Source: Lysobacter sp. Root690 (GTDB lineage Bacteria; Pseudomonadota; Gammaproteobacteria; Xanthomonadales; Xanthomonadaceae). Taken from it: a stretch of 62,832 nt of DNA. Under the pieces are notes generated by a model. The model had not been told where the DNA came from. It saw nothing but the letters and a program-made list of their open reading frames with translations, and searched no databases. Shown here piece by piece: positions 36,573-40,171 of this stretch (position 1 is the first letter of the stretch; every line of letters starts with the position of its first letter). Made by a program: the position numbers and the translations under genes. The DNA is taken from contig NZ_LMHM01000013.1 of the NCBI RefSeq assembly GCF_001427785.1, positions 886,906-949,737 on the forward strand, read 5' to 3'.

Positions 36573-37409
36573 TCAGTGCCCGTCGCGCATGCGGCCTTGC
36601 GCCGGATCGTCCGGCGCCAGGCTCGCGCCGAACGCGCGCATCGCCTGCGCGGTCGCGGCGTCGGCGGGGAAGAACGATTCGATCGCCAGTTCCGACAAGG
36701 TCACGTCCATCGGCGTGCCGAACACGGTGGTGGTGCTGATGAAGGCCAGTTCGCCCAGTTCGCTGCGCAGGCGGAACGGCACGGCGACGTGCAGCGACGA
36801 CGGCAGTTCGGTTTCGTCGTACTCCTCGGGCGCGGGGTAGGCCGCGAGTTCCTCATACAGCGCTTGCAGCACCGGGTCGCCGGTGGTGTCGATCTGGTGG
36901 CGCAGCCGATGCAGGATATGCGCGCGCCATTCGCCCGGATTGACGATGCGGGTGGCCAGGCCTTCGGGGTGCAGGCTCGCGCGCAACACGTTGGCCGGCC
37001 GCGCGAGCAGGAAGTCGGGCAGGCCGGCGAGCAGCGGCGCGACCGCGCGGTTATGGGCGATCAGATTCCAATGCCGGTCGACCGCCAGCGCCGGGTGCGG
37101 TTCGTGCCCGTACAGCACCAGTTCGATCGCGGCGTAGGCCTCGTGCAGGGCCGGATGGTCGAGGCTGCGTTCGGAATACATCGGCGCCAGGCCGGCCGCG
37201 GTCATCAGCTGATTACGCTCGCGCAAGGGCACGTCGAGGCGGTCGGCCAGGCGCAGCAGCATCGCCCGGCTCGGCAGCGAGCGGCCGGTTTCGATGAAGC
37301 TGACATGGCGGGTCGAGATCTGCGCCAGATCGGCCAGATCGAGTTGGGTCAGACGGCGGCGCTGGCGCCAATCGCGCAGCAGCTCGCCCACGGGGCGTTG
37401 ATCGTTCAT
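36573..37409 (-). CDS. XRE-family regulator with MmyB-like C-terminal domain
   Basis: 278 residues from ATG 37409. The helix-turn-helix spans about residues 8-62 (RLTQLDLADLAQISTRHVSF, then ETGRSLPS). From about 90 a MmyB-like ligand-binding (PAS-like) domain follows: HEAYAAIELVLYGHEPHPAL and AVDRHWNLIAHNRAVAPLLA. It ends with DVTLSELAIESFFPADAATA. Regulators of this type often control an adjacent divergent gene encoding a small membrane or dehydrogenase protein. Here the divergent neighbour is the four-helix membrane protein 131 bases away, the likely target. Confidence 0.88.
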   Translation of the reverse strand: MNDQRPVGELLRDWRQRRRLTQLDLADLAQISTRHVSFIETGRSLPSRAMLLRLADRLDVPLRERNQLMTAAGLAPMYSERSLDHPALHEAYAAIELVLYGHEPHPALAVDRHWNLIAHNRAVAPLLAGLPDFLLARPANVLRASLHPEGLATRIVNPGEWRAHILHRLRHQIDTTGDPVLQALYEELAAYPAPEEYDETELPSSLHVAVPFRLRSELGELAFISTTTVFGTPMDVTLSELAIESFFPADAATAQAMRAFGASLAPDDPAQGRMRDGH

Positions 37410-37540
37410 GCCGGCCACGATAGCCCAGCGGCGGCGCGCATTGGCATTACCTGGCACGTAATCGACCGGCCGCGGGTGCGGGTGTGTGATGGCGTCAAGC
37501 AAACACGAACGATCACGACGATCACCCACAGGAGACGATC

Positions 37541-37948
37541 ATGGCCATTACCTTTCAACCGCAGGCTTCCACCTTGTTGCGCCGCGCACTGGTGCTCGAC
37601 GCCGGCGTGTCCGGCGCCGCCGGCTTGTTGCAACTCGCCGCGACCGCGCCGTTGTCGCGCTGGCTCGCGATCGATCCGGGCTGGCTGCGCGGAGGCGGCG
37701 CGGTGTTGCTCGCCTGGATGCTGTTCGTGGGCTGGGTGGCCACGCGCAAACCGATCGCGCCGGCGCTGGCGTGGACGGTGATCGGGGTAAACCTCGCCTG
37801 GGTCGCCGGCTCGGTGTTGTTGCTGGTCGAGGGTGCGATCACGCCGAACGCGCTGGGTCTGACCTTCGTGCTCGCGCAGGCGGCGGTGGTGGCGGTGTTC
37901 GCCGAGCTCCAGTTCTTCGGTCTGCGCCGTCAACTCAAGGCGGCGTGA
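37541..37948 (+). CDS. Small integral membrane protein
   Basis: 135 residues with four predicted transmembrane helices, at about 15-37 (LVLDAGVSGAAGLLQLAATA), 47-66 (LRGGGAVLLAWMLFVGWVAT), 75-97 (LAWTVIGVNLAWVAGSVLLL) and 102-125 (ALGLTFVLAQAAVVAVFAEL). A short charged tail ends RRQLKAA. It is divergent from the XRE gene, and a good ribosome site (GGAG, about 9 bases) precedes the ATG. The protein resembles small membrane proteins often placed beside XRE-MmyB regulators, but its role is unknown. Confidence 0.8.
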   Translation: MAITFQPQASTLLRRALVLDAGVSGAAGLLQLAATAPLSRWLAIDPGWLRGGGAVLLAWMLFVGWVATRKPIAPALAWTVIGVNLAWVAGSVLLLVEGAITPNALGLTFVLAQAAVVAVFAELQFFGLRRQLKAA

Positions 37949-38076
37949 GGCGAGCGGACAGCCGATAAAAGTAGTCGCGTCGTCAGTTGTTTTCTGTGAT
38001 GCGCACGAAGATTTTCAGTGTCGTAACACGCCGTGGCGAGCGTATTTCTGACAGCTAGATCCCACCGGAAACGCGA

Positions 38077-38085
38077 TGCTATAAG
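38077..38085 (+). promoter_or_regulatory. Extended -10 promoter for the peptide-P450 unit
   Basis: TGCTATAAG is an extended -10 element (TGn plus TATAAG), which can act without a strong -35; no good -35 is visible at the right spacing. Transcription would begin near 38091, just at the 5-prime edge of the leader hairpin and about 70 bases before the peptide ATG. Confidence 0.45.
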
Positions 38086-38091
38086 GCCGGT

Positions 38092-38115
38092 ACTGTGCGG
38101 TTTTCGCCGCACAGT
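38092..38115 (+). promoter_or_regulatory. Leader stem-loop at the mRNA start
   Basis: ACTGTGCGG and CCGCACAGT form a perfect 9-pair stem with a TTTTCG loop. The position relative to the extended -10 puts it at the very 5-prime end of the transcript, where such stems stabilise the message. It could instead terminate the upstream membrane-protein gene, but no T-run follows. Confidence 0.4.
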
Positions 38116-38160
38116 CCACCGTTGCGTACTGATACGTACTCATAGACAAGGAGATGAGAG

Positions 38161-38259
38161 ATGGCAAGGTTGCTTCGCGCTGCTCGTGTCGCTATGAACA
38201 TCCATCCCAACGAAACCAGCAGCCTGTGGAAGACGTGGCCGCTGTGGGTGGAATTCTGA
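38161..38259 (+). CDS. Candidate P450-associated RiPP precursor peptide (32 aa)
   Basis: A 32-codon gene too short for standard ORF calling. It encodes MARLLRAARVAMNIHPNETS followed by SLWKTWPLWVEF. AAGGAG ends exactly 7 bases before this ATG, ideal spacing; an ATG at 38154 abuts the site and is out of frame. Residues 1-20 read as a basic leader. The C-terminal 12 carry three Trp at 23, 26 and 29 (W-x2-W-x2-W) plus a final Phe. The P450 gene begins 113 bases later on the same strand. P450-crosslinked peptides such as tryptorubins, cittilins and biarylitides use exactly this arrangement of short aromatic-tail precursor plus one P450. Precursor function is inference; no peptidase or exporter is seen. 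Confidence 0.65.
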   Translation: MARLLRAARVAMNIHPNETSSLWKTWPLWVEF

Positions 38260-38324
38260 TCCTAGGCTCTATCCGCACGCTCGCCTGACCTGGTCAGGAC
38301 GATGTGAGCAGGACCATGTAAGCA

Positions 38325-38353
38325 GGAGGGCGGCCGATCGCCGGTCGCCCTCC
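38325..38353 (+). promoter_or_regulatory. Hairpin between precursor and P450 genes
   Basis: GGAGGGCG and CGCCCTCC, extended inward by three pairs, form an 11-pair stem with a seven-base loop in the 113-base gap. No T-run follows. Such stems between a precursor and its enzyme can act as processing or stability barriers that keep precursor output high. Just upstream are a 13-base palindrome (38285-38297) and two 14-base repeats. Confidence 0.45.
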
Positions 38354-38372
38354 GATCAGAACGAGGCGCTCC

Positions 38373-39593
38373 TTGACCATCCAACCCGATCCCGCGGACG
38401 ATCCCGCGGCGCGCCTGCTCGAGCGCGTGCGTCGCGAAGGCCCGGTGCTGCCGTTGCCCGGCGGTGTCGTCGGCATTTTCAGTCCAGCCCTGGCCAACAA
38501 GGTCGACAAGATCAACTCCGACGATCTCAAGGTCATCGATTCGCTCGCCGACGTGCTCGGCATGCGCAAGTCCGAACCGGTGACCTGGCGCGAAGTGCGC
38601 GCCCTGCTGACCGAGCGCAGCGGCGCGCTGGTCACGCCCGAACAGATGCGCGCGTTGCACCGGCGCATGCAGACGTATCTCAGCGAGCACACCGGACGCG
38701 AGCAAGACCTGACCAAGCTGATGTGGCGCACGGTGTCGCGCGCGCTGATTCCGCTGGCGATCGACGGCATCGACGGCCGCGATCTGCGCACCCTGATCGA
38801 CGAGCAGGAACTGCGTTTTCGCATCCAGCTCGAACAGCACGTACCGCTGTGGCGGCGGATTCCCGATTTCCTGCTGCACCGCGCGGCAACGCGGGCGATT
38901 ACCCGGCAGATCAAGCAACGCGTCGCGCGTGGCGAGTCGCGCGACGATTTCACTCAACCTTTGCTCGGGTTGGTGGATCGGATCGGGGTGGATCGCGTCA
39001 CTTACTTGGTGACCGTGCAGATGATCGCGATCTCCGGCGTGCCCGGCATGATGGCGGCCTGTCTGGTGTATGCGATGTCGAATTACCCGCAATGGCGCGA
39101 GCACTTGCAGGAGGAAATGGACGCGCTGGAGTGGGAGGAGTTGTACACCCTGCCGATCCGCAAGCTGCCGCACACCATACGTTTCATCAAGGAAGCGATG
39201 CGGCTGTGGACGACGCCGTTCGTGACCCGGCGGGTCGCTCAACGTGATATCGATCTCGACGGCGTGTCGGTCAAGAAAGACCAGATCTACGAGTTGAGTT
39301 CTTACATCCTGCATCACTCCGAGGAATACTGGGACGAGCCGGAAACCTTCGATCCCGACCGCTGGCTGTCGTCGCGGCGGCAGGAGGCCAAGGGCGCCTA
39401 CGTGCCGTTCGGTTTCGGCCCGCGCTCGTGCGTCGGCGCCTCGGTCGGGCATGCCCAGTTGGTGTTGTTCTGCGCGATGATGGTGCGCGACTTCCGCTGC
39501 GACCTCAGCCCGGTGCATTCGCCGTGGATGCGCAAGGAAGGTTTCGCGGTGCCGACCGATTTCGTCGGCGTGGTTTCGCTTCGTCAACGTTGA
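38373..39593 (+). CDS. Cytochrome P450, partner of the Trp-rich peptide
   Basis: 406 residues from TTG 38373, preceded by GAGG. P450 marks are EAMR (Glu274, Arg277 of ExxR), FDPDRW (326-331) and the haem loop FGFGPRSCVGASVG with Cys353. The I-helix oxygen-activation segment reads AISGVPGMMAA (219-229), lacking the usual acid-Thr pair, which is unusual and suggests radical coupling or a changed proton path. Redox partners are not encoded nearby. The immediately upstream Trp-rich peptide is the probable substrate, so the enzyme may cross-link or oxidise Trp side chains. A terpene or fatty-acid hydroxylase role is the main alternative. The convergent greB gene starts 54 bases after its stop. Confidence 0.9.
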   Translation: MTIQPDPADDPAARLLERVRREGPVLPLPGGVVGIFSPALANKVDKINSDDLKVIDSLADVLGMRKSEPVTWREVRALLTERSGALVTPEQMRALHRRMQTYLSEHTGREQDLTKLMWRTVSRALIPLAIDGIDGRDLRTLIDEQELRFRIQLEQHVPLWRRIPDFLLHRAATRAITRQIKQRVARGESRDDFTQPLLGLVDRIGVDRVTYLVTVQMIAISGVPGMMAACLVYAMSNYPQWREHLQEEMDALEWEELYTLPIRKLPHTIRFIKEAMRLWTTPFVTRRVAQRDIDLDGVSVKKDQIYELSSYILHHSEEYWDEPETFDPDRWLSSRRQEAKGAYVPFGFGPRSCVGASVGHAQLVLFCAMMVRDFRCDLSPVHSPWMRKEGFAVPTDFVGVVSLRQR

Positions 39594-39646
39594 ATGCTCG
39601 ATGCGCGAGTGCGTCGAGCTGGCCCGCTGCGCTTGACCCGCCGCGC

Positions 39647-40171
39647 TCACTCCGGCGTGTTTGGACCCGCGCCGCTGTAATCGACCTGCACGATCGCGAA
39701 CCGCGCCATGCCGCCGGGCAGCATCGCTTCGAATTCGTCGTCGACCCGGCGCTTGAGCATCGCCCGCGCCAGCGGCGAATCGATGCTGATGTGGCCCAGG
39801 CGCGCGTCGGTTTCGTCGGGGCCGACGATCCGGTACCGCGCCAGCTCGCCGTCGGCGACTTTTTCGACTTCGACCCAGGCGCCGAAGAACACCGACTGCG
39901 GGTCGCTCGGCGTGGTCTCGATCACCCGCAGCAGCGGCAGGCGCTTGCTCAGGTAACGCACGCGCCGGTCGATCTCGCCGAGTTGTTTCTTGCGGTAGGT
40001 GTATTCGGCGTTTTCCGAACGATCGCCCTCGGCCGCCGCGGCGGCCAGGGCTTTGACGACTTCCGGGCGGCGTATTCGCCACAGGTCGTCGAGTTCGTGC
40101 TTGAGCCGCGCGTGGCCCTCCCGCGTGATCAGGGCGGTGCCGGTTTCGGCGGGAGGACGCCAGCGACCCAT
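39647..40171 (-). CDS. greB: Transcription elongation factor GreB
   Basis: 174 residues. The N-terminal coiled coil carries the acidic tip motif ([20 protein letters not shown], with the D-x-x-E-N-A-E-Y of Gre factors), and the C-terminal globular domain has [20 protein letters not shown] and [20 protein letters not shown]. GreB inserts the tip into the RNA polymerase secondary channel and triggers transcript cleavage to rescue backtracked complexes. The start ATG is supported by a good GGAGG-like site within the upstream NlpE-like region. It follows the NlpE-like gene by 7 bases, so the two may be co-transcribed. Confidence 0.92.

Follow-up and report, generated by a model that had tools for sequence, protein, structure and literature searches.

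Among P450-modified peptides, those of the cittilin type have a Tyr-rich core. The atropopeptides or bitryptides (tryptorubin, scabrirubin) are encoded by two-gene loci whose precursor has a KSLK-type leader motif near residues 17-20 and an xWxxxx core (PMC11450843). They are reported from Streptomyces, Xanthomonas, and related genera (PMC11450843), and putative clusters of Xanthomonas and related Pseudomonadota are described in two papers (PMC11450843, PMC12352619). The enzyme ScaB joins the Trp residues in WxxW through a C-N bond, and the bond that it makes in WxxY is C-C (PMC12352619). Biarylitides derive from a five-residue precursor and have clusters in Pseudomonadota, and a reference line of the same paper gives the title of the hyalucidin study, which names tandem P450 catalysis (PMC13417212). 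The aminopyruvatide precursor ApyA has 66 aa and a YLY motif, and proteins of the MNIO, methyltransferase, and B12-radical SAM types are encoded in its cluster (PMC13192836, PMC11117315).

The locus described here lies in a 62.8-kb stretch of DNA that was analyzed as a whole (the window). It consists of a short precursor gene and a P450 gene on the same strand, and we interpret it, with a probability of about 0.78, as a minimal two-gene P450-modified RiPP cassette in which the P450 joins the side chains of Trp residues at a spacing of three. Since relatives keep both the peptide-P450 pair and the Trp residues unchanged, a small ribosomal product cross-linked by the P450 is very probable. A preliminary description of the window had proposed a two-gene RiPP unit of this kind; the linkage of the pair and the selection on the peptide support this proposal, within which the cross-link is what we infer. 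The precursor gene, its ribosome-binding site, and the three Trp residues (W23, W26, W29) lie exactly where that description had put them, and the P450 frame starts, as it had reported, 113 nt 3' of the end of the precursor gene (Table 1).

The precursor ORF translates to MARLLRAARVAMNIHPNETSSLWKTWPLWVEF (32 aa and a stop codon). Only four ORFs of 20-45 aa (ATG or GTG start) with a strong ribosome site occur in the whole window, and the precursor ORF alone among them has a tail of the form [WY]xx[WY]xx[hydrophobic or aromatic]. Under a laxer rule that admits weaker ribosome sites and asks for 24-45 aa with at least three aromatics among the last 10 residues, two ORFs pass on the forward strand of the window and none on the reverse strand. 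The extended -10 element noted previously is present; a consensus scan of positions 37900-39700 gave neither a full sigma-70 promoter nor a -35 partner, so that what is seen is the -10 half alone. A predicted hairpin in the 5' leader would presumably have a function.

The P450 was used to search for related loci at several taxonomic levels. Matches at E ≤ 1e-20 were obtained in 19 of 297 family genomes, including 15 strong (E ≤ 1e-60) and four weak ones (group C), and the strong matches fall into clade A (seven genomes, 48-100% identity) and clade B (eight genomes, 33-38% identity). The window's own genus has matches in 9 of 20 genomes (five clade A, four clade B). The genus of genome G124 holds 26 loci in 18 of 91 genomes, and that of G061 has matches in 3 of 11 genomes (one A, two B), all of them already in the family set. 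Among 369 genomes of the class, nine gave a match at E ≤ 1e-25, with a score above 101 bits in the window's own genome only, and no comparable upstream peptide was found at the class-level matches beyond it; a contig scan gave five distant P450s, none with such a peptide beside it. Two arrays with several P450 matches in a row (G192:C55:92633-97983 and G214:C1:797003-802926) were also observed, which we take to be possibly gibberellin-type operons.

All 32 clade A loci (eight found initially and 24 found after the pattern was seen) have one peptide of 32-33 residues, led by a ribosome site, directly upstream of the P450; a selected short precursor gene linked to a P450, the broad mark of P450-modified RiPPs, is thus found at 32/32 clade A loci. 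P450 relatives lacking a short aromatic-tailed ORF had been named beforehand as grounds for rejecting the proposal, and such an ORF is present at 16/16 clade A and B loci of the first set, a tally that used [WY]xx[WY]xx[FI] as a filter (15/16 are also in the unfiltered lists), and at 24/24 later clade A loci. For these 24 the rule required a ribosome site, a length of 24-45 residues, and three or more aromatics among the ten C-terminal residues, and the tail-motif filter was not applied; it picked one peptide at each locus, with its end 115-120 nt upstream of the P450 match. Applied to the first 1 kb of each of the 24 P450 genes and to the antisense strand of the upstream stretch, this rule gave 0/24 in both cases. 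A precursor profile has strong matches (E ≤ 1.8e-12) in the 15 strong-P450 family genomes and nothing better than E 0.0027 in the other 282 of 297, that is, no orphan precursors; since the loci behind the A1 profile are among those it recovers, the recovery is by construction, which the absence of orphans is not.

The clade A precursors comprise 14 distinct peptides of two types, A1 and A2, with seven each. In all 19 genes of type A1, to which the window peptide belongs, W23, W26, W29, E31, and F32 are unchanged, as are the leader residues R3, R6, A7, R9, V10, N13, I14, H15, P16, E18, S20, and S21. Variation in the tail is confined to positions 22 (L/V), 24 (K/N/T), 25 (T/V), 27 (P/Q), 28 (L/Y/I), and 30 (V/I), and the alignment proposed as a check on the precursor came out with an invariant Trp spacing and variable residues in between. 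Type A2 (13 genes) ends in [KR]YxYWxxF, with one Trp and two Tyr replacing the three Trp. The two tails together indicate that the i,i+3 aromatic pair and the terminal Phe are common to clade A, the third Trp being specific to A1. The A2 P450s are separated in the P450 tree with 100/100 support (three sequences). Three tree builds agree on clades A, B2, and A+B2, with A grouped with B2 at 100/100 or 97/97; the atropopeptide P450s branch next to A/B2, but their placement and that of B1 involve long branches and carried a warning, and they are not used as evidence.

Table 1. Features of the peptide-P450 cassette in the window. L007 and L026 are loci of close relatives.
Feature	Position	Strand	Basis or remark
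Extended -10 promoter half TGCTATAAG	38077..38085	+	sequence; identical in L007 and L026
Predicted 5'-leader hairpin, stem CTGTGCGG/CCGCACAG	38088..38121	+	forms in L007 and L026 as in the window copy
Ribosome-binding site AAGGAG	38148..38153	+	7 nt before precursor ATG; invariant in L007 and L026
Precursor peptide gene	38161..38259	+	ORF; synonymous-only change in close relatives; held-out profile E 4.5e-20
Putative leader part, residues 1-21	38161..38223	+	inferred boundary; 12 residues invariant in 19/19 A1 genes
Putative core part, residues 22-32, LWKTWPLWVEF	38224..38256	+	inferred boundary; W23, W26, W29, E31, F32 invariant
Trp codons of the precursor core	38227-38229, 38236-38238, 38245-38247	+	
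Intercistronic hairpin, 12-bp stem, no T-run	38325..38353	+	z -2.3 for 38260-38372
GAGG, possible P450 ribosome site	38363..38366	+	6 nt before TTG; conserved in L007 and L026; inferred role
Cytochrome P450, 406 aa, TTG start	38373..39593	+	PF00067 E 1.8e-35; predicted full P450 fold
I-helix Gly222-Val223 of P450	39036..39041	+	Asp/Glu-Thr at that place in other P450s
P450 heme Cys353	39429-39431	+	invariant in 15 aligned P450s

The 32-codon ORF is a genuine gene under purifying selection. Both L007 and L026, the P450s of which are 96% identical to that of the window, encode the same 32 residues. Across the three genomes, 2 of the 99 bases of the gene vary, both synonymously and without a stop codon or frameshift, and the neighboring non-coding DNA shows more changes and gaps. 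The random substitution among close relatives that would have spoken against a precursor is hence not seen. The peptide dN is 0 among these three, while their P450 genes stand at dS 0.21-0.25. Compared with more divergent A loci, the window peptide has dN 0.19 and dS 2.07 (L012) or dN 0.13 and saturated dS (L008); A2-type peptides, with dN/dS of 0.42-0.46, are under weaker constraint. A profile trained without the window's lineage recovers the window peptide from six-frame translations (E-value in Table 1), and the A2 peptides are the top matches of an A1-trained profile (E 4e-4 to 3e-3).

The P450 is the sole PF00067 match found in the 6.3-Mb genome of the window. The Pfam match covers residues 229-394, with the N-terminal third divergent from the model, and the full P450 fold is predicted by structure modeling. 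The ExxR residues E274 and R277 are, like the heme Cys, invariant in 15 aligned P450s. The Asp/Glu-Thr pair of the I-helix is lost in 8/8 clade A P450s and kept in 16/16 other P450s compared. A VIA-align search with the predicted structure, which excludes nothing, gave no known peptide-cross-linking P450 that we noticed among the 50 matches listed.

The two genes make up the entire unit, as had been stated previously. The downstream neighbor is a GreA/GreB-type gene on the opposite strand, the upstream neighbor, an ORF of 135 aa, matches no Pfam or NCBIfam family, and no gene for a leader protease, an exporter or other transporter, or a redox partner lies inside the two-gene unit. Further upstream (36573-37948), an MmyB-like regulator (PF17765) is divergent from the 135-aa ORF; this DNA aligns in most same-genus genomes without the cassette and is thus probably outside the unit. 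The P450 is missing from 11 genomes of the same genus. Eight of them can be aligned on either side of the unit, with a gap of 262-422 nt in four and 0.9-1.4 kb of other DNA in the remaining four; in three, alignment is limited to the downstream flank. A search of the 11 corresponding stretches gave no precursor (best E 0.058). The cassette is a discrete block of ~1.7 kb with two genes only, and it is absent as a unit. At each of the 10 clade A loci that were folded, the intercistronic region forms a strong hairpin (z -1.7 to -3.4), the sequence of which differs among the sub-groups, and the window copy may be an attenuator or stabilizer. Rfam gave no match in the window at the gathering threshold.

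In the genus of G124, 18 genomes have a match and eight of them combine cassettes of types A1 and A2; in six of these eight the two share one contig, within ~4 kb of each other; such paralogous pairs are seen in G1064, G1066, G1073, G1076, G1088, and G1089. Mobile insertion of the cassette, considered because it seemed to occupy different spots in G267 and G124, was rejected, since the co-occurrence in the larger set means that presence or absence of two neighboring cassettes explains the differing spots.

The clade B loci have a more elaborate composition. At 8/8 of them a second, divergent P450 precedes one to three precursors and the clade B P450 follows them; the 17 precursors end in WRWxxYHNI, with one in YHTI. 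At one locus (L104), the next genes encode a MatE protein and two M16 peptidases according to Pfam, and BLAST clustering found a MATE-cluster gene at 7/8 loci and at least one M16-cluster member at 8/8. Since a crude GC rule was used to call the ORFs, single gene calls in clade B may be wrong. These loci (L102-L109, in G062, G070, G008, G013, G173, G015, G217, and G089), with precursors of the form MKKxICAMRAAFGVRG...WRWxxYHNI, are RiPP-like clusters that are possibly hyalucidin-related. They look like full RiPP clusters, and in this they support the reading of the clade A P450s. Neither the clade A nor the clade B peptide profile finds the other, so that the link between A and B is based on the P450s, the position, and peptide length and tail, and not on peptide homology.

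Compared with the atropopeptides, the cassette has the same two-gene composition, an unsplit leader, and WxxW in the core, and differs in the core itself, which in atropopeptides is a six-residue xWxxxx end. Membership in that family was rejected: residues 17-20 of the window peptide are NETS, no listed KSLK variant occurs anywhere in it, and it has no match to NF038372 tryptorubin_fam at E up to 0.1. The atropopeptide family is also represented in the window's bacterial family. At L132 and L133 (G006, G058), a precursor MKLLFSIKHLLSSKKPLKSYAWYIWY at position 687 in match orientation stands beside a P450, and its AWYIWY core is presumably that of tryptorubin; as a positive control, the L132 peptide scored 54.7 bits with NF038372 (cut-off 33). 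The window P450 matches known atropopeptide P450s in BLAST over 42 aa only (E 8e-5). Its best NCBIfam match is ApyO (NF050147; 77 bits, below the cut-off of 525), which is also the best match of the atropopeptide P450 of L132 (66.9 bits). The size of ApyA, its YLY motif, and its multi-gene cluster set aminopyruvatide apart from the window cassette. Biarylitides resemble it in their minimal peptide-P450 loci, aromatic coupling, and occurrence in Pseudomonadota, and membership there was rejected because the linked, selected ORF has 32 aa and not five residues. A further set of loci (L021-L024, L112, L119-L121) has a 26-aa peptide ending in LGYIY[IST]Y followed by an ApyO-like P450; at L112 this P450 scores 190 bits against the cut-off of 525 and a sulfotransferase gene (PF17784) lies downstream. 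A Tyr-coupled, sulfated RiPP is a possible product of these loci.

A short Trp-rich ORF followed by a hairpin is found in trp attenuator leader peptides, and here, too, Trp codons precede a strong hairpin upstream of a single gene, with a hairpin at every clade A locus folded. That the ORF is a Trp-rich regulatory leader peptide that controls the P450 through the intercistronic hairpin, and not a precursor, is nevertheless scarcely credible, and we rejected it. Conservation extends along the entire peptide, non-Trp residues included, with synonymous turnover; type A2 has one Trp and two Tyr instead of the three Trp; clade B loci can contain as many as three peptide genes; and the hairpin of the window copy, lacking a T-run, was not called a terminator. 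Hyalucidin A is another point of comparison, through a weak N-terminal precursor similarity and the use of P450 enzymes. The NCBIfam model Hya_RiPP (NF053510, cut-off 35) gave 16.3 bits with the window peptide over residues 1-16 only, 15.3-17.1 bits over the N-terminal 16-20 residues in 4/7 clade A peptides, and 14.1-21.1 bits end to end in 5/5 clade B peptides, and it matched 0/9 shuffled peptides. Above the cut-off it found nothing in 398 phylum and 297 family genomes; the controls of one of these two scans gave no match either, which means that absence is not demonstrated, and the many weak rows of the other were mostly short matches inside long frames. We rejected membership in the hyalucidin family because the precursor scores below the cut-off and both the unit and the genome have one P450, not two. 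The hyalucidin motif reportedly needs Trp-Tyr; the window peptide has no Tyr, and such a product would thus be impossible for it. A divergent hyalucidin-family member making benzofuranoindoline is for these reasons very unlikely, despite the sub-cut-off matches and the tandem P450s of clade B, which recall the hyalucidin title (PMC13417212). Clade B may be a hyalucidin relative, with clade A further off.

It is also unlikely, to a lesser degree, that a genuine RiPP precursor and its P450 are present and the reaction is hydroxylation, dehydrogenation, or C-terminal oxidation instead of aromatic cross-linking. The reaction is not readable from sequence, the three Trp could serve recognition or bioactivity, and the window P450 is distant from characterized cross-linking P450s. 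Against this, the loss of the acid-Thr pair from the I-helix of clade A would suit coupling over oxygen insertion, the i,i+3 aromatic pair persists even where Trp is changed to Tyr, and atropopeptides cross-link at equal i,i+3 spacing (PMC12352619).

Under the cross-linking interpretation, the 32-aa precursor would be made, probably in excess, and its basic N-terminal part (M-A-R-L-L-R-A-A-R-V-A-M-N-I-H-P-N-E) would act as a leader, binding the P450 and offering it the C-terminal WKTWPLWVEF. The enzyme would then oxidatively couple W26-W29 and/or W23-W26, each bond costing 2 H. For the untagged full-length peptide, with a calculated [M+H]+ of 3824.00, one bond would mean a shift of -2.016 and two bonds a shift of -4.031. 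By analogy, the nearest precedent for such coupling is the chemistry of ScaB. House-keeping redox partners could supply the electrons and house-keeping proteases could cut off the leader, to give a small cyclic or bicyclic Trp peptide. A more detailed version, which we consider tentative and rather doubtful, is that this P450 of an undescribed clade, devoid of the I-helix acid-threonine pair, forms both the W23-W26 and W26-W29 bonds and yields a bicyclic indole ladder that is neither an atropopeptide nor a hyalucidin, in a family that diversifies via cognate paralogous A1 and A2 cassettes side by side.

The preliminary description had regarded a proteobacterial peptide-P450 pair with a three-Trp ladder as new. 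The pair as such is already in print, given the putative atropopeptide clusters of Xanthomonas and related Pseudomonadota (PMC11450843, PMC12352619) and the biarylitide clusters (PMC13417212). What is left is narrower: neither P450 clade A nor a WxxWxxW core associated with it was found in the literature searched, which covers few subscription journals.

This cassette is a compact addition from Gram-negative bacteria, in which a peptide with three Trp in its core is paired with a P450 of a clade separate from the described two-gene families compared here. The 14 distinct clade A precursors, with their invariant aromatics and variable spacers, allow a direct test of the rules by which WxxW and YxxW are coupled. 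Taken together, clades A and B form a natural series, with a single P450 at one end and two P450s accompanied by export and protease genes at the other.
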